DNA of 64,000 nt from Gamarada debralockiae (Eukaryota; Ascomycota; Leotiomycetes; Helotiales; Hyphodiscaceae), in assembly GCA_002803225.1 (NCBI GenBank), contig NXFV01000959.1, positions 22,269 to 86,268 on the forward strand, given 5' to 3'. The notes beneath the pieces are model-generated. The model was not told the DNA's origin and searched no databases. It was given only the letters and a program-made list of their open reading frames with translations. Below, piece after piece: positions 3,791 through 37,828 of this stretch. Position numbers and translations under genes: made by a program. Each line of letters opens with the position of its first letter. Position 1 is the first letter of the stretch.

Positions 3791-5457
3791 ATGGAGATCT
3801 TACAAAGAATCCTCGACGTGTTCGGAGAACACAGGTCACTCATAATCGTGTCTGTCATCATTACGGCTCTATTTATTGCCGCGAAACCGTTATTCAGCGT
3901 CAAATATGACCCCCGCGAGCCTCCCATCATCTCACATCCAATCCCTTTCATCGGTCACGTTATCGGAATGTTTAGACTTGGCGCCAGGTATTTCGACTTC
4001 ATCAAGTACGTCCTTCCGTTTCTTTTCAATCTCAATCCTATTAATCCGCGAGCCACTCTTTCTGACCCTCCCGCAGCCAAGAACACAACTACCCAATCTA
4101 CACTCTCCCAACCCTCACAGGCCGAACCTACATCATCACCTCACCAGCGCTCGCAGCAATTATCCAGCGTACCTCCAAGTCCACTTCATTCTACTCCGCC
4201 ATCCTGGAAGTGACGAAACGTCTTAGCGCGTTCGATAAGCCAACCATGGACATCATCTTGACGAACGCGAACGGCGACCAAGGAGATTTTGGACTCATGC
4301 CCGAATCGCATGACATGATTGCTAGCGTTCTCGGACCCGGTCCAACATTAAACGGCATCATCAAGCTCCAGCTTGAGATTTTCACCGAGACCCTGGGAAA
4401 ATTGAACCCCAAAGATGGTGAAGTTGTTGATTTGCTCGAATGGCTCCGAGAGCAGTTCACCATGGGAAACGCGCGCACAATGTACGGGCCCGAAAACTTA
4501 TTCGCCATACACCCGGAGCTAATCAAGGATTTCTGGGTTTTCGAAAAAGGCATGTTCGGTCTGCTCGCCGATATCCTTCCCTCCATCTTCGCTCGCAAGG
4601 CATACCTAGCCCGCAAAAGAATCTTCGCGGGGTTGGTTGAGTATGTGAAGAAAGAGCGGTATAAGAAAGCGAGTTCGATGATCCAGCAAAGAGTTGCGAT
4701 TAATTTGAAACATGGGATTACCCCAGAGATGACGGGACATTGTGAACTGATTATGCTTTTCGCGATTGTTGGGAATGCGATCCCAACCTCGTTTTGGTTG
4801 TTGGCGAATCTGTTTTCGAGACCTGAGTTGCTTGCTGAAGTGAGAGGAGAGATTGAGAAGGCTGTTACGGTGGTGAAAGGAGATAGTGGGAAGGAAATCA
4901 GGGCCATCCATGTTGATACGTTGAAGTCTGTCGCGCCTGTGCTGACGTCCTGCTTTCGGGAGACGCTCCGCATGGCTGCGAATCTCACTTCCGTGAGGTG
5001 GATATTGGAAGACACGATGATCGCGGATAAGTACCTTCTCAAGAAGGACTCAATTGTTCAGGTTGCTAGCGGAGTCATTCATATGGATGAGGAGATCTGG
5101 GGCGCAGATGCGGGCGAATTCAACCCTCGCAGATTCGTAACAGCGACCGAGAATGCGTCGGACAAGACCGCCACGGCACCGCTTCCGAAGAATGTGCCGT
5201 CAGCAGCCTTCCGAGCCTTTGGGGGTGGGAGCGTCATTTGCCCCGGTCGACACTTCGCTCAGAGCGAAATCGTTGGATTTGTAGCTGCGGTTGTGATGGG
5301 GTTTGATTTTGAGAGGCCAGGTGGTGGGGTGATAGAGTTGCCAGAGAGGAATAATGAGGTGATTCCGTTGGCTGTGATGAAACCGAAGGATGAGTGCAAC
5401 GTTGTGATAACAAGGAGAAAAGGGATGGAGGGTGTGAAGTGGGAGCTTGAACTATGA
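3791..5457 (+). CDS. Cytochrome P450 monooxygenase
   Basis: Two exons, 3791-4005 and 4077-5457, give 531 residues. The 71-bp intron has a GTACGT donor and a CCCGCAG acceptor, and the join is in frame. Residues about 15-37 form a hydrophobic N-terminal anchor (RSLIIVSVIITALFIAA), so the enzyme should sit in the ER membrane. The I-helix region is around residues 290-310. The ExxR motif is ETLR at 367-370. A PERF-like NPRRF precedes the haem loop FGGGSVICPGRHFA, whose Cys460 should ligate the iron. Such enzymes hydroxylate or epoxidise small lipophilic substrates using NADPH-P450 reductase. Overall character suggests the CYP7/CYP8-like (group IV) fungal enzymes, which is family knowledge rather than proof. 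The substrate is unknown. It converges with the NmrA-like gene on its right. Confidence 0.93.
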
Positions 5458-11300: not shown

Positions 11301-13259
11301 ATGTTGAATTACCAACCTCTTAATTTCACGACCTTCGAATTCCGGCTTTTGAAAGTGCTACCCACTCAGGCCGGAGACGACAATAGCACCATCCGCTGCT
11401 CCCTTGACCACAGCTCCTTGATTGAGCCTCCCGAGTATCACGCTCTCTCTTATTGCTGGGGAGACCCGGAAATCACGACAAGTATTATAGTTAACGGGGA
11501 ATCCATGCAAGTCACCACGAACCTCGACGCTGCTCTCCGGGAACTCAGATCCCAACATTTGACGACGCTTTGGGTGGACGCATTGTGCATCAATCAGGAG
11601 GACGTGACTGAGCGAGGACTCCAAGTCACACGTATGGGGTTAACATACTCCAGGGCGGAGGAGGTGATAGTGTGGCTTGGAGAAGAAGCCGATGACTCTG
11701 CAAGTGTCATGGTTTGCCTGAACGAAGCGTCTAAAGGGAAGTCCTTCGATTTGGTGCCACCCATCGTCAAGCCCGCCATCTTGGCATTGCTACGGCGGCC
11801 GTTCTGGAGACGGGTTTGGATCATCCAAGAAGTTTCGAAATCCCGAAAACTTAGGGTTTTCTGTGGGGCTTATAACGTTGATTGGGAACAAATGTACGAC
11901 GTTCTTACAGCTTGGAAACTTGTTCCCCCTGTGATCAAGGCACTCCAGAGATTTCGATCAGTGGAGCAGTTCAATGTGGATATAAACCGCCCAGAGCTCA
12001 TCAAAGGGCTTTTCGAAACTATTCACAGTCTGTCAACCGACCCCCGTGACAAAATATATGCGATTTTGGGACTATGTTCGGACGGACCGTATCTTGTTCA
12101 GAGTCCAAATTATGTGCAACCCCCTGAAAGGATATACTTTGATCTTCTCATGGCGCTTATATCAAGAAATCCAAAATTAAACTACATGGCCCGACAAATA
12201 TCCACAAGCAGTACTTTGCTGGTCAGTAGTATTCCTCATCCAGACTGGACAATGATAACCCACGGAATTCCATTCTGGACTTTGAATGCATTGCTCGTTA
12301 AACAAGTAGAACCCATAACTGGATTTTATATAGATCCTATGGCTTCTAAATTTTTCCCTGTATCTCGCCGTGTTAGAACAATCGGATTAGAAGAGTTTCC
12401 ATCCCTCTCATTTTCTGGATTACACGCATCGGTAGTCGTCATAGATTCGATATTACAACTCCCAAATGGCCAATACAATAGCCCAGATAGCAGCGACGCT
12501 ACAGCCAACCTGCCAGAAGCGAGTAATGCTGACGCACGACATGTGATGACATGTTTTGGGAATGCTCTGTTACTACATCACTCCAGCAGCGGAAAGTGCG
12601 CCTCTTTTCAATCGCCACGTCAACGGAAAAGGAGCCCATTCATTCATCCATTGTTGGTGGCATGTGCCTTGACATATTTGTGCACAAGATCCAGTTCGAG
12701 TGACGACTTCGACGACAAACCCGGCAGTACGCTCGCTTTCTCTGACTGGTACAAAAACAACGGATCTCTCAAGTTTTGTGGAGAGAAGTTAGAGATGTGG
12801 GCGAGGGTCTACTCCCAAAGTTCCGAGTACAAATTCGAGGCCTTTCCACTACTTTACCTTGGACGTGTCAAAGGAAGAATCCGGGACGTCGTTCTGGAGA
12901 TATCACTCCTCATGATAGAAGGAATCCAGTGGGCAAAAAAACACAAACTTTGTCTTGCGACGGGTCAGAAGGCGAAGGTTATTCAGCTCGTGCCTTGCGA
13001 AGTGATGCAAGGAGACCTACTTTGTCGGATCCGATACAGCTGGGCGCCAATTTTCATTCGGCCGGAAGGTAATAGGGGCTATCAGTTTGTTTCATTCAGT
13101 AGGGCATCTCCATGGCTCTGTAGAAAAAAATATGACTATATTCGAAATTTCTTCAACCGGAAGGTGAAGATAGATATGTGGGATTGGGTAAATGGGGTTG
13201 TTAAATCTGACCACGGAGAACAGGAGGAAAAGAAGTGGGAAACAATTACAATGTATTAA
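11301..13259 (+). CDS. HET-domain (heterokaryon incompatibility) protein
   Basis: A single exon of 652 residues. The HET domain covers about residues 40-185 with all three blocks: YHALSYCWGDP at 46-56, LWVDALCINQED at 90-101, and the later PFWRRVWIIQEV before VFCG. The TDPRDKIYAILGL-type block follows near residue 245. The C-terminal half is variable, as usual. HET domains are related to TIR domains and act as death effectors when non-self is detected after hyphal fusion, so the protein probably acts in the cytosol in allorecognition. No extra domain such as NACHT or WD repeats is visible, so it belongs to the common HET-only class. The frame is undamaged, in contrast to the broken HET gene at 28141-30575. 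Confidence 0.93.
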   Translation: MLNYQPLNFTTFEFRLLKVLPTQAGDDNSTIRCSLDHSSLIEPPEYHALSYCWGDPEITTSIIVNGESMQVTTNLDAALRELRSQHLTTLWVDALCINQEDVTERGLQVTRMGLTYSRAEEVIVWLGEEADDSASVMVCLNEASKGKSFDLVPPIVKPAILALLRRPFWRRVWIIQEVSKSRKLRVFCGAYNVDWEQMYDVLTAWKLVPPVIKALQRFRSVEQFNVDINRPELIKGLFETIHSLSTDPRDKIYAILGLCSDGPYLVQSPNYVQPPERIYFDLLMALISRNPKLNYMARQISTSSTLLVSSIPHPDWTMITHGIPFWTLNALLVKQVEPITGFYIDPMASKFFPVSRRVRTIGLEEFPSLSFSGLHASVVVIDSILQLPNGQYNSPDSSDATANLPEASNADARHVMTCFGNALLLHHSSSGKCASFQSPRQRKRSPFIHPLLVACALTYLCTRSSSSDDFDDKPGSTLAFSDWYKNNGSLKFCGEKLEMWARVYSQSSEYKFEAFPLLYLGRVKGRIRDVVLEISLLMIEGIQWAKKHKLCLATGQKAKVIQLVPCEVMQGDLLCRIRYSWAPIFIRPEGNRGYQFVSFSRASPWLCRKKYDYIRNFFNRKVKIDMWDWVNGVVKSDHGEQEEKKWETITMY

Positions 13260-22172: not shown

Positions 22173-24437
22173 ATGGCCTTGAAATTCGCTCCATTTGGCT
22201 CTGAGATCGAGTTGCCATTTTATACAGCTCTTTCGCAATCCAAGATCGATCATGACAAGCTCGATGATTCTGCTCGGACTGTCCTTGGCTTGTACGAGCC
22301 TCGTGCGACCTCATCTCCAGATGAGAGCTGTCGCATGCGGGTTTTGGGAAATGCGCTGACGAGTGACGAGTGAGTCGAAGTCTATGGTTTTAGAGGACAG
22401 AGAGATACTGACTTGGTCGCAGTGTCCCATCAAATAATATCCGGGCCGAGGGAAAGATAAAGAATGTCAACACGATTGAGGATTTCAAGAATATTGACAA
22501 GGCAGCCATGCTTCAAACAGCCGCCAAACAGGTATGCACTCATTTCCGCTTGGCCATAGTCAAATGCTGACTTTCAAAGATCTGGGACGCCATTAATGAC
22601 GGCACCATTTATTCTATCCCTTCTCTACTCTCCTCTTTTACCATAATTTCATTTGCCAACTTGAAGAAGTACACGTTTACGTACTGGTTTGCTTTTCCTG
22701 CCCTTCATTCTGAGCCTGTCTGGAAGCGAGTCGAGTCTTCAAATCCAGAAGAGTTGACTGGAAAGGAGACCACCGCACTGGTTGATGAGGTTGGCACCTG
22801 GAGATATGGCACTGACAACCGCGAGCATGGGTTTTTCTTGGCCAAGAAAGTTCGTCAATCTTCTACTGAAGATGACCGCCCCAAGACCCCTGGTACACCT
22901 GGCAATGAGTTGGGCTACAAATGGGTTGTTGGTTCCCTTCGTGCATTCGAAACTGGTTTCTTTAACGGCGTCGACCCAGCGGACCAATTTGTTTGTTTTG
23001 TTGACCCCTCTACTTATCCTGAAAATCCAGGCTGGATGCTTCGAAATTTGCTTGTGCTGATCCGACGAAGATACAAGTTGAGCAAGGTGCAAATTCTATG
23101 TTACAGAGACGTTCAATCGAAGCGACATGAGGCCAGAAGTCGAATTCTTCATTTGGAGACAGAGGAAGATGCGAATAGCACCGAGACGACTGAGATGCCG
23201 AAGGTAACTGGATGGGAGCGCAATAGCATTGGAAAGCTGAGCCCAAAGGTCACGAATTTGGCCCAATATATGGATCCTCAACTCTTAGCAGATCAGTCAG
23301 TCGATTTGAATCTGAAGCTCATGAAGTGGCGAATCGCTCCAGATTTAGATCTCGACAAGATCAAAGAAACGAAATGTCTTCTTCTTGGTGCTGGAACGCT
23401 GGGCACGTTCGTTTCACGAGGTCTTATGGCATGGGGTGTACGGAAGATCACATTTATCGACAACGCGACAGTTTCATTCTCAAATCCCGTGCGGCAGCCA
23501 TTATTCGATTTTAAAGATTGTCTCGACGGAGGCGCAAAGAAAGCGTACAGGGCAGCGGAGGCTTTGCAAGAGATCTACCCTGGAGTTGACAGTACTGGGC
23601 ATGTTATGTCAGTTCCGATGCTTGGGCATCCCATCACAGACGAAGCCAGCACAAGATTGGATTTTGAGACGCTTCAAAAGCTGATTGATGACCATGATGC
23701 AGTTTTCCTTCTCATGGACACGCGCGAGAGTCGATGGCTTCCGACAGTGATGGGGAAGGCAGCTGGAAAGATTGTTATGAACGCAGCGTTAGGATTTGAC
23801 ACTTACGTGGTCATGCGACATGGAGTGGCAGCAGCTGACGGTGGTGCAGCAGCTTTGGGTTGCTATTTCTGCAACGATGTTGTAGCTCCTGGAGACGTAT
23901 GTTACCCCTCTCCCTTGACCGTAGAAATTGCTAACTTGAAAATAGTCTGTCAAAGATTTGACCCTCGACCAGCAGTGCACTGTGACTCGTCCAGGAATCG
24001 CACCCATAGCCTCAGCTCTCCTCGTCGAACTCTTGGTATCCATCTTGCAACATCCACTTGGAGCTCAAGCTCCGGCTCCAAAGACATCCACGAACCAACA
24101 GTCATCATCAGTCCAGTACGAGCGCGATCCTCCAACCCATCCTCTTGGTCTCGTCCCCCATCAAATCCGAGGGTTCCTTTCAAATTTCAACAATATGCTC
24201 ATTAGTGGACAGTCATATGACTGCTGCTCGGCATGTTCTCCGAAGATAGTTGAGGCATATAAGAAGGGTGGATGGGAGTTCATCAAAAAGGCTTTGACGG
24301 AGAAAGATTACGTTACCGAACTCAGTGGACTGGCAGAGGTGCAGCGTGCTGCGGAGGCTGCTGCGAATGATGTTGAATGGGACAGCGAGCCAGGTATGGA
24401 GGATGGCGATGACGAGGGAGAGGGAGAACTTCTTTGA
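22173..24437 (+). CDS. ATG7: Autophagy E1-like activating enzyme Atg7
   Basis: Four exons, 22173-22369, 22423-22531, 22580-23896 and 23946-24437, give 704 residues, within the family's range. An in-frame ATG 36 bases upstream was not chosen because the conserved Atg7 start is the short form ([17 protein letters not shown]). The N-terminal domain that grips the E2 enzymes spans about residues 1-340. The adenylation domain has the nucleotide loop GAGTLG at 372-377, followed by [20 protein letters not shown]. The catalytic cysteine is Cys552 in [11 protein letters not shown]. The C-terminus is acidic. Atg7 activates Atg8 and Atg12 in the cytosol and passes them to Atg3 and Atg10, allowing autophagosome formation. 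Confidence 0.97.
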
Positions 24438-31711: not shown

Positions 31712-34700
31712 CTAGCTCAGATTTGATTGCAAGCCTGAGAAAACCTGATCAAAAATCTGGGGAATAACATGCTTATCAAGCTCCAGCCTCCTGAGTACTT
31801 TTTGAGGAATCATCTCACAAAGTTCCTTGGGTACATTCCTTAACATCTCAATCATGACTAGAGAATTTTGAACCGCGGAAAGAAAATCGCCCTCTCCAAA
31901 GAATTGTATATATTTGGCCCTTTGGATCTCTGCCTCATAGAACCACTTATAGGCTCGTTCCACTTCCAGATGTTGAGGCAGTAGCCACGGTAGTGTTGCC
32001 ATGGCATCAGAATGATCATACCGCTGCAAGAGATGCACCACAGTCTTGAGAGCAAGTCGAGGGCGTCTAGATTCTCCAAAGTGGCGGTGCAGTGTCCTGA
32101 ACTGGTTCCAGTCTGTGAAATCCCGCGCGAAAAATCTACCAAGATTCGTTTCAATTGGCTCGTTGAATGAACCTGGGCTTTCAAGTCTCCGCATGGTTTT
32201 AATTTCCGTCAAAGCTTGAGCATAGTCTTCAGTGTTAAAGGCAGCCTGCCACGTATGGAAATGTTGTTGCCAGATCAAGCTTTTAAAGTTGTTGCGTGTA
32301 GGTTGGACGAGGCAATCCGGTATTCCGGGATAGTTGCCAGCCTCGTAATCCCGAAGTATGGATTCGATCATCGTGATCGCATCCGCATAGCGACCTTCTT
32401 CCACGGCCTGGCCCGCAGTCATCAGAACGTTGATGAAGTCCCGGGAGCTCAAAAGCATTTGCCGCTTCCCCGACATGTTCTTGAATGGTATGCCAGGTAA
32501 GAGTGTGGGATCATCAATCTCTTCAAGTTTGTCCAATGTTTCTATAGCCTTCTCGAAGTCTCCTTCTAGTAACGCTTGCTGGTGTTGTTGGATAAGATTC
32601 CCAAACTGTTTGCCAAGCTCCAGAAGTTTCGCTTTTCCTCCCGGCTTTTGTGCATATTCGCGATATTGCCCTAGCAGATCCTTGAAGTGCCTCTTTGGTG
32701 GTTTCTCAAATTTTTGCCCAACAACCTGCTCCGACTTCTTTCTTTGTGCTGTCTCGTACAAACTTTCTGCTTGCGAGTGGTAGTATCCATTCTCTGGCAC
32801 CCGAAACTCCGAGCTTTTGATGTCTGCCAAGAAGGTTTCATTCATCTCCGGGGTTTCGCCAAGCCCCGCAACAGAGGTGCACAGTTGAAGCATTTGATAC
32901 GTGGTCTCGGATTGCTTCTTTAGCTCTAACATCTGGTTGAGATCTTCTGCATATGCTTCATCTGTCCGATAAATTCCAATCAAAGAATTTTGTAACTCTA
33001 TGGACGACTCAAAGTTCCGTTCCTCCATAGCTTGGGCCAAAAGAGCTTTGTAATGCTTGATAGCCTCTACTCGATTTCGAACGCTCAATGAATTTTCCAG
33101 CTCTGCACTTCTAGTAGTAGAATCTAAATCCTGAGAGTAGCCGATCCAGTCGGTGGAAAGATCGTGCTTAATAGAATTGATGTCTAGTCCACTGAAACTC
33201 TTTCCAGCCAGCTCTGCAGGACCCGTTCCATTTTTAATTGACTCTTGTACCTCGGCTATATCGGCCTTCATGTCTCTCCTTCGGATGAAGTTCTCGATCT
33301 GGGAAGTGCGCTGCTGCAAGCTTGGGATATGTTCAGCGATTTGATCCCAGGTCACAGATTCGATGTCCACTAGGGATGGCAGTCCCTCCAGCCCAGATAT
33401 TGCACTACGAAAGGTTGAACATTCCGCCAATGACTTCGAACCTTGCGAGAAATCGGCTGAGTCGCGGTACATCATAGCTAACGAAACGGCGCCAACGAGA
33501 TCTTTATCTTTGAGCAGCTCGTCGTCCGTTTTGTCTATCATGTCAAAGGTGAGTAGAGAGAACTCCTTAGCTCGCTTGGTAGGAAGAGTTGAAATTATCA
33601 AGTGCGCAGATGTGAGGTAATTCCCAGCCGATATCATCAGCAACAGAGCTCGAACGTCTGTCGGAATTATACGGCGGGAAATGAATCTTCTGACGAAGGT
33701 TTCGTATTGTTTGGCCAAAAGCGCTGTCTCATCAACGGACAGGAACCACATCCCGGCGCAGCCGTACATCTGCAAAGAATATGGCCAAAAATCCAGGCAA
33801 ATGAGCTCTTTCCCCAGTGAGCAGAGTCTTAAACAAGTGATGATATTGTAGAATGCTGGCTTCAGGACTTCCTCGAAGCCTCTGAATTTCCCAGCCTCAG
33901 CTGTTGTTCTCATAAATTTGTCCAAGTTTCGGCTTGATATCCCGCTGAAGAATAGCCGAGTGAACCATGGTACAGATACATCTGGCATTGAGTCTTGGTC
34001 GGACTCCAGCGCCCAACGAAGAGGTCCCGAGAGCATCACCCTTGCAGAGGTAAATATGCAACGTCCCGCGAGGGTGAATAATGGGTGCATGTGTTCAACA
34101 AATCCTTGGCCGTCTAGGGAAAAATAGCCCCTATCGACCCCAAAATCTAATGCCTCAGCAATTACATGTTCCTGAGCCGCCTCTACCAACGTGTTTAAAA
34201 CTTTCTTCGAGCATCCTTGATGCCAATAGAGAACCAAGGCTGCGAAGACGTTGGCATAAATCGGCGGCAGTCGTCCAGAAATACTGGAAAAGAACATATC
34301 TCGTCTCAGAAACGAGCTTTCATTTGATGTAACAGGCCAAACTCCCGAAAATTTGTGGAAGAGAATTTGTTGGAACAGTTCCTTCCAAGGATGGCCCTGA
34401 GACGCAGTCGCTCGTAGAACTGTATGAATGGCAAGTGGGTTGCATTGAAGTATGTTGAGGACTTGTGACAAGACGTCTTCGTCTTCATGTCCCCACTGAC
34501 TTCTGTCAACACCGTTGTCTCCAAGTAGATTGTGGGCAAACTCTATCGCGTCAGGAAGGGACAAGCCGTTCAATTCATAACGGGGGAATGTAGGCAGGTC
34601 TGGGAAGTGCTTCTTCCACCAGTCATCGTCGTTCCTTCTCCCTACGAGAACGAGTTTGAGGGCTTCTTCTTCGTTGTCTGATCTGATGCTAATAATGTCT

Positions 34701-36460
34701 TTTATTAAGGTCATCAGAGCGAATCTTGTTCTTTCAGACCACCGACCATGATCGGTCATCTCATTCACATCCGAGTGGCTTGCTTCCAATTTGTCCAAAA
34801 CGATAACTTGGTAATCGTCCCTAAGTTCCGCTAACGTGGATCGATACTCGGTCTCGTCTTTCCCAATAACGCATGATGTTGACTGATTCGGCCTGCCACC
34901 TAACAACTGCTGAAGAAGCGTTTCGGGAGTATCAGTTCTACCCAGGTGAAGTGATGAACAGTCCACATGGAGTGTCTTTTCAAATAGCCCAGTTTCTTCC
35001 CAGCAGCGAAGAAGGTGGTGAATGAATGCTGTCTTGCCAACGCCAGCAGGTCCTGACAGTCCAGTAATGTTTGATCCAAGGAATATTGTTTCGAAGCGGA
35101 GTACGTCAAAACCTCGTCCAACTAGAGGAGAAGAGGTTGTAAGTTTGTCTTTAGAGACCGTCGCTAGTACAGGAGCTTCGATCTGGAAATCCTTGTCTGG
35201 AATGCCGGAGATCTGAAGCTCCACGTCTTTCCCACTGGCGTAGACTACCGGTACTATCCAGTCCTCTAGCGGTCGGTTGATGGCGAAACGAGCGTCTCGG
35301 TTCGGCGAGCAACGCAGCTGTTCCCGAGCATCTCGCACGGCAATCGAAAAAGGCTTGCCACTGGCGATGAGAGATTCGTAAAAGCAGCGCATGAACTCTG
35401 TGCAAGTGCTGCTGAGGATTTTGTAGGCCATAGCTAGCACATTCTGAACACCGGCCTTAGTGAACGTTCTCGCTATATTTGCCTCGTCTCCTTTGTTTGC
35501 CTTGGCAGACTCGCAAGCGTTGAGTACGGCAATTCTAATGTTGTGCTTCCGCAGCAGATCCGCGACGGCTCCAGCTCGTGTAGCGATCAATGTACCGTTC
35601 CCTTTTCTTGATTGGAATTTCAGAAAAGCCGCAGTGGTACCTTTATCTTCCTCCTTCTCACCGGGAACATCAACTACTCCGTGTACGTCGAAATGAATAA
35701 TGTGGATATCACCGTTGCGTCGAAGGCTGGATCTTTCATCCAAGTGCTTCTTCAAAGCCTGGAATGAGCCTGGACGAACTACCTCGATGTTAAGTCGAAA
35801 GGCGGCACCTCGAGTCTCGAGGTCCCTTTTGAGTGTTTGCATGCTGTGGAATACCAGGTTCGGATCTACCTCGCCTTCACCCCTCCCGATAAGTTTGCGC
35901 GAAACGACGAGGAGGATGTTCACCGCAGGTACTCCTCGTGACCAAGACTCGACTCGCTTAATAGAAAGAATTGAAGTTTCCTTTTGAGGAATGATACGTC
36001 GCACTGTTGTCCGTATATTGAGGTTCTTCCAAAGTCGGGGATACTCAAGAACTTCCCAGTGCAGCCGATGGACGGTATTTGACGAGACTGCATTTGAGTC
36101 TTCCGTGTCTTCGACAATGTCTATCTCAAGGACTTTGTGTTTAGGGCTTGTGGGACCCGTTAACCTCCTCCATACTCGGCAGAGATGAAGCTGATCAAAC
36201 AAGCTATCGGCATAGGAGTTGAGCGACTCTGCCGCAACGTCTGCTCTGTCTTTCTCGAAGGGTGATTTGTGAAGGTAATCTTCCAGATACCAGCGGCATT
36301 CATCCTCATCGGCCTCGGAGAACGGATCCAACAATGTAACCTTCCTGGCAAAGCAGGCGCCTCCAAGATAGACAGTAACTTCCCATCCGGATGAGGCCGC
36401 CTTAAATTGCCGCACAAGTATCCTTAGATGATGGGTTGGACTTCTAGAGGATTCTGCCAT
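31712..36460 (-). CDS. CHAT protease - STAND NTPase - helical repeat protein (NLR-like)
   Basis: One uninterrupted frame of 1582 residues. Residues 1-170 are an N-terminal region. Residues about 175-410 form a CHAT (caspase-like) domain: strand VNILLVVSRK, catalytic His260 in IIHFDVHG, and catalytic Cys316 at the end of strand RIAVLNACESA. Residues about 440-720 are a STAND/NB-ARC-like ATPase with Walker A GPAGVGKT at 470-477, Walker B YQVIVLDKLEA near 550-560, a sensor-like LKLVLVGRR and the CNPLAI motif that matches GxPLA. The remaining 850 residues are all-helical with TPR-like pairs such as HYKALLAQAMEERNFESSIE. This is the layout of a NOD-like receptor whose effector is a protease. It is head to head with the gasdermin-like gene, the probable substrate. 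No signal or membrane segment is visible, so it should be cytosolic. Confidence 0.88.
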   Translation of the reverse strand: MAESSRSPTHHLRILVRQFKAASSGWEVTVYLGGACFARKVTLLDPFSEADEDECRWYLEDYLHKSPFEKDRADVAAESLNSYADSLFDQLHLCRVWRRLTGPTSPKHKVLEIDIVEDTEDSNAVSSNTVHRLHWEVLEYPRLWKNLNIRTTVRRIIPQKETSILSIKRVESWSRGVPAVNILLVVSRKLIGRGEGEVDPNLVFHSMQTLKRDLETRGAAFRLNIEVVRPGSFQALKKHLDERSSLRRNGDIHIIHFDVHGVVDVPGEKEEDKGTTAAFLKFQSRKGNGTLIATRAGAVADLLRKHNIRIAVLNACESAKANKGDEANIARTFTKAGVQNVLAMAYKILSSTCTEFMRCFYESLIASGKPFSIAVRDAREQLRCSPNRDARFAINRPLEDWIVPVVYASGKDVELQISGIPDKDFQIEAPVLATVSKDKLTTSSPLVGRGFDVLRFETIFLGSNITGLSGPAGVGKTAFIHHLLRCWEETGLFEKTLHVDCSSLHLGRTDTPETLLQQLLGGRPNQSTSCVIGKDETEYRSTLAELRDDYQVIVLDKLEASHSDVNEMTDHGRWSERTRFALMTLIKDIISIRSDNEEEALKLVLVGRRNDDDWWKKHFPDLPTFPRYELNGLSLPDAIEFAHNLLGDNGVDRSQWGHEDEDVLSQVLNILQCNPLAIHTVLRATASQGHPWKELFQQILFHKFSGVWPVTSNESSFLRRDMFFSSISGRLPPIYANVFAALVLYWHQGCSKKVLNTLVEAAQEHVIAEALDFGVDRGYFSLDGQGFVEHMHPLFTLAGRCIFTSARVMLSGPLRWALESDQDSMPDVSVPWFTRLFFSGISSRNLDKFMRTTAEAGKFRGFEEVLKPAFYNIITCLRLCSLGKELICLDFWPYSLQMYGCAGMWFLSVDETALLAKQYETFVRRFISRRIIPTDVRALLLMISAGNYLTSAHLIISTLPTKRAKEFSLLTFDMIDKTDDELLKDKDLVGAVSLAMMYRDSADFSQGSKSLAECSTFRSAISGLEGLPSLVDIESVTWDQIAEHIPSLQQRTSQIENFIRRRDMKADIAEVQESIKNGTGPAELAGKSFSGLDINSIKHDLSTDWIGYSQDLDSTTRSAELENSLSVRNRVEAIKHYKALLAQAMEERNFESSIELQNSLIGIYRTDEAYAEDLNQMLELKKQSETTYQMLQLCTSVAGLGETPEMNETFLADIKSSEFRVPENGYYHSQAESLYETAQRKKSEQVVGQKFEKPPKRHFKDLLGQYREYAQKPGGKAKLLELGKQFGNLIQQHQQALLEGDFEKAIETLDKLEEIDDPTLLPGIPFKNMSGKRQMLLSSRDFINVLMTAGQAVEEGRYADAITMIESILRDYEAGNYPGIPDCLVQPTRNNFKSLIWQQHFHTWQAAFNTEDYAQALTEIKTMRRLESPGSFNEPIETNLGRFFARDFTDWNQFRTLHRHFGESRRPRLALKTVVHLLQRYDHSDAMATLPWLLPQHLEVERAYKWFYEAEIQRAKYIQFFGEGDFLSAVQNSLVMIEMLRNVPKELCEMIPQKVLRRLELDKHVIPQIFDQVFSGLQSNLS

Positions 36461-36946
36461 TGCTATAGCAAAACGAGACGGATAGTGTTTGCGATGTAAT
36501 CAGGCAGATGGACTGTGACGAGATGGGCATTTCATGCCGACTTGCCGCAACAAGCTCCAGGAGGACTATTTAGAACCCGGCATTTCTCGAGATGCTCAAT
36601 AACTTTCAGAAGTAACCATGCACTGGTTTGTAGGTGATTGTTTCGAGGTGGAAGGCCTTGAGATGTCGAAGCTGTGTACGTTGACGTTGACATCTGACCG
36701 ATTTCAGCTTCAGCGCTAATTTTGTGGCGTACTCAGCTGCTGAGCTTGAACTAATAGCCTCTCAACAAGTTTCACGCCGCTGCGTGACCCCTGCCAAGAA
36801 CGGCTCGCAGAGAGAAGATACCAACTATTTATAGCATCGTATAGTATTTTTTTGGCGTGACCTTTGGTAGCGTTCCCAGCCTTGTTTCCTCACCCCAAAA
36901 TTCCACGACTGGCGACAGACACATAACACCAACAGGACATTGCAGG
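36461..36946. promoter_or_regulatory. Shared divergent promoter of the CHAT and gasdermin genes
   Basis: A 486-bp region lies between two divergent start codons, short enough to be a common control region. A TATA-like TATTTATAG lies about 120 bp before the gasdermin start. I found no obvious palindrome or repeated operator. Confidence 0.55.
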
Positions 36947-37828
36947 ATGCCGGGCCGCCACTTCGTCCTCGACGAACCCGCTTCGGAAAGCAATGCTGGA
37001 AGGTTGATTGGTCGTGTTGTCCTAGATATCACATCGCCTCTCAGGGCATTCGCACCGAGAGAGGCTGCTGAAGGTACACCGGCGGGCCGTAACCCTCAAG
37101 ACATCATCCCGAATATTTTGCCTATTCCACAATCGTCCACAAACAGGAAGGATTTCATCCAGAATAATGTTTCGGGCGAGGGTCGAACCGGCCTCACGGA
37201 CTTCTTTGGCTTCAACATCACCAGAACCGAGGAAGAGAAATTGACCTTAAAAAGCAAGGTGGTCAAGCAATATTCATTGGAACAGACCAAGGATGTCTTC
37301 GACGAACTGATGAGAGACCATTCATATAACAGCGAGGTTCGACAGTTTCTGAAGGAGCACAGAATCCGGAAAGCATATTTTGTTGTGGGATTCATAACGA
37401 CAGAAGGCTCAGTCTGGACCCGCGAGCGGATGCGAGGAAATTCGGCCGGAATCAAAGGCCAACTCCCATTGTCTACCGCCGCCCTTGGACCAATTACTGG
37501 ACCTGATCTGAGCATGAAACTGTCTACGTCAGACAACAAGGTTCGAGAACAGAAGTTTTCGTCGAAGGAACCTCTGATATTCGCGGTTGCTTATGATGTC
37601 GTCAAATTGAAGAAGAGGTTCGATAAAACCGTCCCAGGATATTTCAGAGATGATGTGGTCCTGGGACCGGTGAAATATGTCAAGTCAAAGCATCTGGTGA
37701 TGGGACGAGATGAGGATGAAATTATCGAGGAGGAAGAAGATTCGGAGGAGGATGTTGAGCTTGATGGTGGTTTGGATTTGAAAGATCTTGGTTCTGGGTG
37801 GGATGGACTGAGTTTTAATGTGGTGTAA
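36947..37828 (+). CDS. Gasdermin-like pore-forming cell-death protein
   Basis: One exon of 293 residues. The open frame extends upstream, but 36947 is the first ATG and has an A at -3. Features that resemble the fungal gasdermins (HET-Q1/RCD-1 group) are the start FVLDEPASESNAGRLIG followed by VVLDI, the block KAYFVVGFITTEGSVWTRER at 142-161, FAVAYDVVKLK at 212-222, and VKYVKSKHLVMG at 242-253. After these comes a strongly acidic tail (about 254-280) and a short end. In characterised fungal gasdermins, removal of a short C-terminal piece by a neighbouring protease frees the N-terminal part to make membrane pores and kill the cell. The gene diverges from the CHAT/STAND protease gene across 486 bp, the expected partnership. 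The family call is by recognition; a structure or profile search would settle it. Confidence 0.75.
   Translation: MPGRHFVLDEPASESNAGRLIGRVVLDITSPLRAFAPREAAEGTPAGRNPQDIIPNILPIPQSSTNRKDFIQNNVSGEGRTGLTDFFGFNITRTEEEKLTLKSKVVKQYSLEQTKDVFDELMRDHSYNSEVRQFLKEHRIRKAYFVVGFITTEGSVWTRERMRGNSAGIKGQLPLSTAALGPITGPDLSMKLSTSDNKVREQKFSSKEPLIFAVAYDVVKLKKRFDKTVPGYFRDDVVLGPVKYVKSKHLVMGRDEDEIIEEEEDSEEDVELDGGLDLKDLGSGWDGLSFNVV

Follow-up and report, generated by a model that had tools for sequence, protein, structure and literature searches.

A 64,000-nucleotide stretch of the genome of the ascomycete Gamarada debralockiae (contig NXFV01000959.1, positions 22,269 to 86,268 of the forward strand; C452:22269-86268 in our numbering), hereafter the window, contains two divergent genes. 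The larger encodes a protein of 1582 residues (P0001) that combines a caspase-like CHAT domain with a NACHT-type NTPase, and the smaller encodes a gasdermin-like protein of 293 residues (P0002). An earlier note on this DNA had described both open reading frames, on the minus and the plus strand, respectively, as well as the gap of 486 bp between them, and we recovered all three as given there. The two genes are arranged head-to-head, with their start codons separated by that gap (Table 1). Their GC contents (0.480 and 0.486) are close to that of the window (0.478), so the composition does not suggest a recent import. The genome assembly, which comprises 54.3 Mb in 1112 contigs, was searched for further genes of both kinds.

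Table 1. Features of the divergent gene pair, in positions of the window
Feature	Position	Strand	Basis
CHAT-NACHT receptor-protease P0001, 1582 residues	31712..36460	-	One unbroken frame; Pfam, 9-sequence alignment
CHAT (caspase-like) domain, P0001 residues 224-389	35294..35791	-	Pfam PF12770, E 4.9e-16
Putative catalytic His260 and Cys316 codons	35681-35683 (His260), 35513-35515 (Cys316)	-	Within CHAT; invariant in 9/9
NACHT-type STAND NTPase, P0001 residues 468-579, Walker A GPAGVGKT with Lys476	34724..35059	-	Pfam PF05729
C-terminal fast-diverging region, P0001 residues ~700-1582, faintly TPR-like, putative sensor	31715..34363	-	Weak TPR matches; predicted function
Upstream region common to both genes, 486 bp between start codons	36461..36946	.	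Computed
Gasdermin-like protein P0002, 293 residues, no Cys	36947..37828	+	24 homologues; profile matches
Putative pore-forming core, P0002 residues 1-225, net charge +7	36947..37621	+	Profile matches inside core
Leu250 codon of P0002, candidate CHAT cleavage site (P1)	37694..37696	+	Invariant in 29/29; prokaryotic precedents
Acidic C-terminal tail, P0002 residues 251-293, putative inhibitory piece	37697..37825	+	Predicted role, by analogy with HET-Q1

Results

The large protein is a probable CHAT-NACHT receptor

Both the CHAT domain (PF12770, E 4.9e-16) and the NACHT domain (PF05729, E 2.3e-6) of P0001 scored above the curated Pfam cut-offs, which bears out the CHAT domain and STAND NTPase that the earlier note had proposed. 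His260, Cys316, the Walker A motif GPAGVGKT with Lys476 and a CNPLAI motif were likewise found at the residues named there. A homologue search in which 8000 candidates were scored returned 10 CHAT-protein homologues; among the closest are two proteins from Hyaloscypha variabilis, both encoded on contigs over 1 Mb. Seven of the 10 homologues, together with P0001 and a paralogue from contig C1095 of the same genome, make up a nine-sequence alignment (profile A4). In this alignment, His260, Cys316, Gly470, Gly473, Gly475, Lys476 and the dipeptide Asn674-Pro675 are invariant (9/9). We take His260 and Cys316 to be the catalytic pair. In the Protein Data Bank (PDB), profile A4 had its best matches in NLRP14, at the NACHT domain (E 3.5e-4 to 4.3e-4).

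The helical repeat region that had been proposed for the remainder of P0001 fared less well, as the signals found there were weak: TPR_18 at E 0.21 in Pfam and TPR chains of LapB at E 0.0092-0.19 in the PDB with profile A4. The C-terminal half of P0001 changes fast among the nine aligned sequences, a pattern that fits what would be expected of a sensing part.

The small protein is related to gasdermins at the profile level

Searching with P0002 by phmmer (E <= 0.001) returned 24 homologues, to which a profile search, again with 8000 candidates scored, added seven to give 31. The start codon of P0002 is well supported because the first residue of 17 of the 24 phmmer homologues aligns with this methionine to within one column. 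We built a profile of 25 family members (A1), a second profile of 20 proteins that included two divergent paralogues from the same genome (A2), and an alignment of 19 sequences (A5).

With profile A2, the Neurospora crassa gasdermin RCD-1-1 (8jyz) ranked first among 177,635 distinct PDB sequences at E 0.021, and the next unrelated chain followed at E 0.33. The genome also encodes two gasdermin-like proteins next to genes for subtilisin-like S8 proteases, P0046 (contig C189) and P0047 (contig C124), and these match HET-Q1 (9uv9) at E 1.8e-5 and 1.9e-5, respectively; P0047 additionally matches RCD-1-2 at E 8.1e-7. Profile A1 aligns with P0046 and P0047 combined in hhalign (E 5.1e-5, probability 67%). 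When A1 was aligned with single sequences, P0045 (360), P0044 (60.6) and P0046 (28.0) scored above the best of 47 decoy open reading frames (21.8), and P0047 (20.1) and P0048 (21.5) fell inside the decoy range. Homology of P0002 to gasdermins thus appears well supported at the level of profiles, as opposed to direct pairwise comparison. The gasdermin-like character claimed in the earlier note, for which a failure to match gasdermin profiles had been named as the refuting outcome, agrees with RCD-1 ranking first for A2 and with the alignment of A1 to proteins that match HET-Q1 and RCD-1.

Gasdermin-like genes adjoin protease genes elsewhere in the genome

The search of the genome with P0002 gave three matches, namely P0002 itself, C1095:37821-38609 on the minus strand (E 8.4e-42) and C869:5588-5944 on the plus strand (E 0.03). 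The last of these, P0044, is backed by reverse searches with P0044 (E 0.005 and 0.018) and by a profile built without P0044 (E 1.5e-11, in a small set of fetched loci). All three matches, P0002 included, adjoin one of the seven CHAT matches in the genome, and all three pairs are divergent. By a simple area calculation, the chance that both matches outside the window fall within 5 kb of one of the seven CHAT matches is about 3.5e-6.

The C1095 gene is paired with one for another CHAT protein, which also has a NACHT-like domain (CHAT E 1.9e-11; NACHT E 2.8e-4, below the cut-off) and shows 31% identity with P0001 across residues 12-804; the two genes lie head-to-head about 340 bp apart by our reading of the start codons. 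On C869, a gene on the minus strand for a TPR-CHAT protein, with its CHAT domain at the C-terminus, lies head-to-head with the divergent P0044 gene on the plus strand (L018:671-6310), at a distance of about 1.3 kb if the first methionine codons are right. In its make-up, this pair resembles the TPR-CHAT type tested in Podospora. The earlier note had regarded a pair that was not kept together in any relative as refuting its proposal; the paralogous pairs on C1095 and C869 both retain the head-to-head arrangement.

A further locus, on C872 (L010:3529-9988), has a gasdermin-like frame on the minus strand, P0048, directed away from a row of frames on the plus strand that ends in CHAT, the last two frames of the row matching this domain. 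In a small set of fetched loci, P0048 was matched at E 3.6e-4 by the hidden Markov model of the full profile, at E 0.0049 by the model without P0044 and at E 0.037 by the model without any member from this genome. Because of this range of E values and an hhalign score inside the decoy range, P0048 is only probably a gasdermin. We consider C872 a probable fourth head-to-head CHAT-gasdermin pair, with the row of frames presumably forming one gene.

Subtilisin-like S8 matches were found on 11 contigs, two of which have a gasdermin-like neighbour within the flanks read (about 1.5 kb or less): C189:26838-28871 with P0046 (L030 and L038) and C124:4313-6370 with P0047 (L029 and L033). Both S8-gasdermin pairs are convergent, tail-to-tail, whereas the three firm CHAT pairs are divergent. 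Ankyrin-like repeats were seen by eye upstream in the S8 gene of C189. On C707, a CHAT-like stretch (L005, C707:16731-17432) carries nine stop codons (six TAG and three TAA) and is probably a decayed copy.

An invariant leucine precedes the acidic tail

All 29 aligned members of the family have a leucine at the position of Leu250 of P0002, the only fully invariant position after Tyr216. The 29 comprise P0002, P0045 and the 27 homologues that remained after four short ones (P0039, P0041, P0042 and P0043; 108-148 residues) of the 31 had been left out of the count; P0010, P0021 and P0025, also incomplete, were included. Mean conservation among the 29 members is 0.49 over residues 225-293 of P0002, against 0.58 over residues 20-224. 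Leu250 lies in a short [HY]-L-[AT]-[MFL]-[GS]-like motif, and the tail of 43 residues that follows it has a mass of 4.8 kDa and contains 17 acidic and two basic residues. Across the family, the mass of the tail ranges from 3.8 to 7.7 kDa. In alignment A5, inspected by eye, we saw no clear counterpart of Leu250 in the CHAT-linked P0044 and P0048 or in the subtilisin-linked P0046 and P0047, so what we say of this residue is confined to the P0002 subfamily.

Several characterized systems bear on this position. The gasdermin of Runella is cleaved after L247 by its own caspase-like protease (PMC9079055), for bacterial gasdermins in general, cuts behind a leucine or an arginine are described, some 20 residues before the C-terminal end (PMC9612521), and the CHAT protease of Craspase cleaves Csx30 after L407 (PMC9729208). 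HET-Q1 of Podospora anserina, like P0002 a short gasdermin, loses about 5 kDa from its C-terminus, with F238 as the likely cut site (PMC12881547), to be compared with the 4.8 kDa that P0002 would lose. Leu250 lies 34 residues past Tyr216, and F238 lies about 32 residues past the aligned tyrosine of HET-Q1, if the numbering of the 9uv9 chain is that of the protein.

By conservation and by analogy with these systems, Leu250 is a candidate for the CHAT cut site, and a structural role of the residue in autoinhibition would account for its invariance equally well. We propose tentatively, giving the idea somewhat less than even weight, that in fungal receptor-gasdermin pairs the CHAT domain cleaves behind a strictly conserved leucine at the edge of the acidic tail, here Leu250, and that prokaryotic and fungal gasdermin switches have both retained the preference of caspase-like and CHAT proteases for leucine at P1, even as tails and receptors changed. 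Among the papers and passages covered, none gave a cleavage site for a CHAT-linked gasdermin of a fungus, which is no proof that none has been published; Leu250 as a cut site is possibly new.

Other genes in the window

About 18 kb from the pair, another gene of the incompatibility type encodes a HET-domain protein of 652 residues (window 11301-13259, plus strand; PF06985, E 7.2e-30). An ordinary housekeeping neighbour encodes an ATG7-like E1 enzyme (22661-24205, plus strand; ATG7_N, E 5.8e-57, and ThiF). A cytochrome P450 match (4210-5457, plus strand; E 1.1e-28) covers the profile only from position 200 onward, so the frame lacks the N-terminal part, which points to an upstream exon or a fragment.

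Discussion

We consider it likely that, in this filamentous ascomycete, P0001 and P0002 make up a cell-death module encoded by two genes, in which a NOD-like receptor (NLR) clips the neighbouring gasdermin with its CHAT domain. This reading builds on the domains, the catalytic and Walker residues, the profile-level gasdermin homology and the head-to-head arrangement that recurs in the genome. The C-terminal region of P0001 would sense a trigger, upon which the NACHT NTPase would switch and oligomerise and the N-terminal CHAT cysteine protease would thereby be activated. Its substrate would be the 293-residue gasdermin encoded 486 bp away. A cut in the linker ahead of the acidic tail, with Leu250 as the likeliest P1 residue, would take off about 4.8 kDa; the freed core of the gasdermin would then oligomerise into membrane pores and cause cell death.

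Several results weigh against this reading. Pfam returned no family for P0002 at E <= 1, and a direct phmmer search of the PDB gave no match for P0002 at E <= 10. With profile A1, RCD-1-1 came third in the PDB, at E 1.9, and the best direct profile match of the P0002 family to any solved gasdermin remains that at E 0.021. At three of the seven CHAT loci (C422, C446 and C707), the 20 kb read contained no frame that matched gasdermins at E < 1. Finally, no longest-contig size was common to any of the 31 gasdermin and 10 CHAT-protein homologues, a comparison that served as a crude proxy for co-location. Among the gasdermin homologues compared, the contig of P0027 measures 92.9 kb, and those of P0029 and P0030 exceed 1 Mb. 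The proxy is weak because a longer contig in a cluster hides a shared one, genes at contig ends are lost and 8000 candidates were scored per search. Scans of viral contigs for relatives, aimed at synteny elsewhere, found none, nor did a pattern scan of a collection of 84,980 prokaryote species.

Another reading is that the 293-residue protein is not a gasdermin at all and belongs to some other acidic-tailed family, placed beside the receptor gene by chance or for another cause. Besides the missing Pfam match for P0002, a gasdermin match was also lacking for 19 further proteins scanned with Pfam, and P0047 and P0048 did not rise above the decoys in the single-sequence alignments. PADLOC yielded no family for P0002 at E <= 1, NCBIfam yielded two weak unrelated matches only (E 0.11 and 0.2) and no gasdermin, and the phmmer search of the PDB was empty for P0044 as well. 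Weak, unrelated matches to GerD and to an F-box protein (9kbd) were set aside. However, P0046 and P0044 scored above all 47 decoys, profile A2 ranked RCD-1 ahead of every other PDB chain, and the family members of this genome have a CHAT or an S8 protease gene as neighbour, an arrangement also published for gasdermins. We regard an unrelated acidic-tailed protein as very improbable.

A different objection accepts the gasdermin and concerns its activation. RCD-1 is activated by meeting an allelic variant and requires no proteolysis (PMC12881547). P0002 might likewise be activated by a partner variant, with the CHAT receptor acting elsewhere or merely modulating. RCD-1 is indeed the solved gasdermin nearest to profile A2, and HET-Q1 is not in the A2 list. 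Yet P0002, at 293 residues and with its acidic tail of 43, is longer than the RCD-1 proteins (257 and 244 residues; PMC12881547), an invariant leucine precedes this tail, and a protease gene recurs beside the gasdermin gene. We hold activation without cleavage to be improbable.

What would trigger the module is a separate matter. The pair could be an allorecognition locus of heterokaryon incompatibility, with alleles or idiomorphs that kill upon fusion of unlike strains, instead of a pathogen sensor. The genes het-Q1 and het-Q2 function in incompatibility (PMC12881547), and a CHAT protein is one idiomorph or allele of the Aspergillus fumigatus incompatibility gene hetB (PMC11138114). In the window, by contrast, the two genes are neighbours on a single contig, whereas het-Q1 and het-Q2 are idiomorphs. 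We hold an allorecognition role to be less likely than not. It concerns the trigger and not the mechanism, and it can coexist with receptor-borne gasdermin cleavage. HET-Q2 is a subtilisin-like S8 protease; because the partner here is a CHAT protein and both genes share a contig, the pair does not represent a het-Q locus, although its mode of action may be similar.

Two-gene clusters of a fungal CHAT-NLR and a gasdermin were reportedly described by Clave et al. in 2022. Fungal NLRs or NLR-like proteins that carry a CHAT protease and are encoded next to gasdermin genes, dozens in number, have been presented as contracted pyroptotic-like pathways (PMC10197012), about 19% of fungal gasdermin genes have been published as lying near CHAT genes, and in Podospora anserina a TPR-bearing CHAT protease activates the neighbouring gasdermin (PMC12881547). 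The pair in the window belongs to this published class of fungal CHAT-gasdermin gene pairs: it shares the N-terminal CHAT domain on an NLR, the adjacent short gasdermin and, putatively, the small C-terminal piece, and we found no essential difference in the accounts covered. The suggestion of the earlier note, a protease borne by the receptor itself, is supported as to the pair, and it was already in print (PMC10197012, PMC12881547). The divergent orientation and the invariant Leu250 were not found in the published accounts covered, and the words head-to-head, divergent and bidirectional are absent from PMC10197012.

The logic of a protease next to a short gasdermin is also that of the Runella system, where a leucine marks the cut (L247) as a leucine marks the candidate site here. 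The Runella gasdermin differs in a palmitoylated cysteine near its start (PMC9079055), whereas P0002 has no cysteine at all, and bacterial gasdermins are cut about 20 residues from the C-terminus (PMC9612521), as opposed to 43 for Leu250.

The locus brings a receptor, a caspase-like protease and a probable pore-former together in two genes, each a single unbroken frame. Since the whole path is encoded by these two uninterrupted frames, it could be rebuilt in laboratory yeast. The invariant Leu250 reduces the question of what a fungal CHAT protease recognizes to a single-residue test. The genome, which has both CHAT-gasdermin and subtilisin-gasdermin pairs, offers a natural comparison of two protease types. 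If CHAT domains do cut after the kept leucine, this residue would be a readable signature separating CHAT-NLR-controlled from subtilisin-controlled fungal gasdermins.

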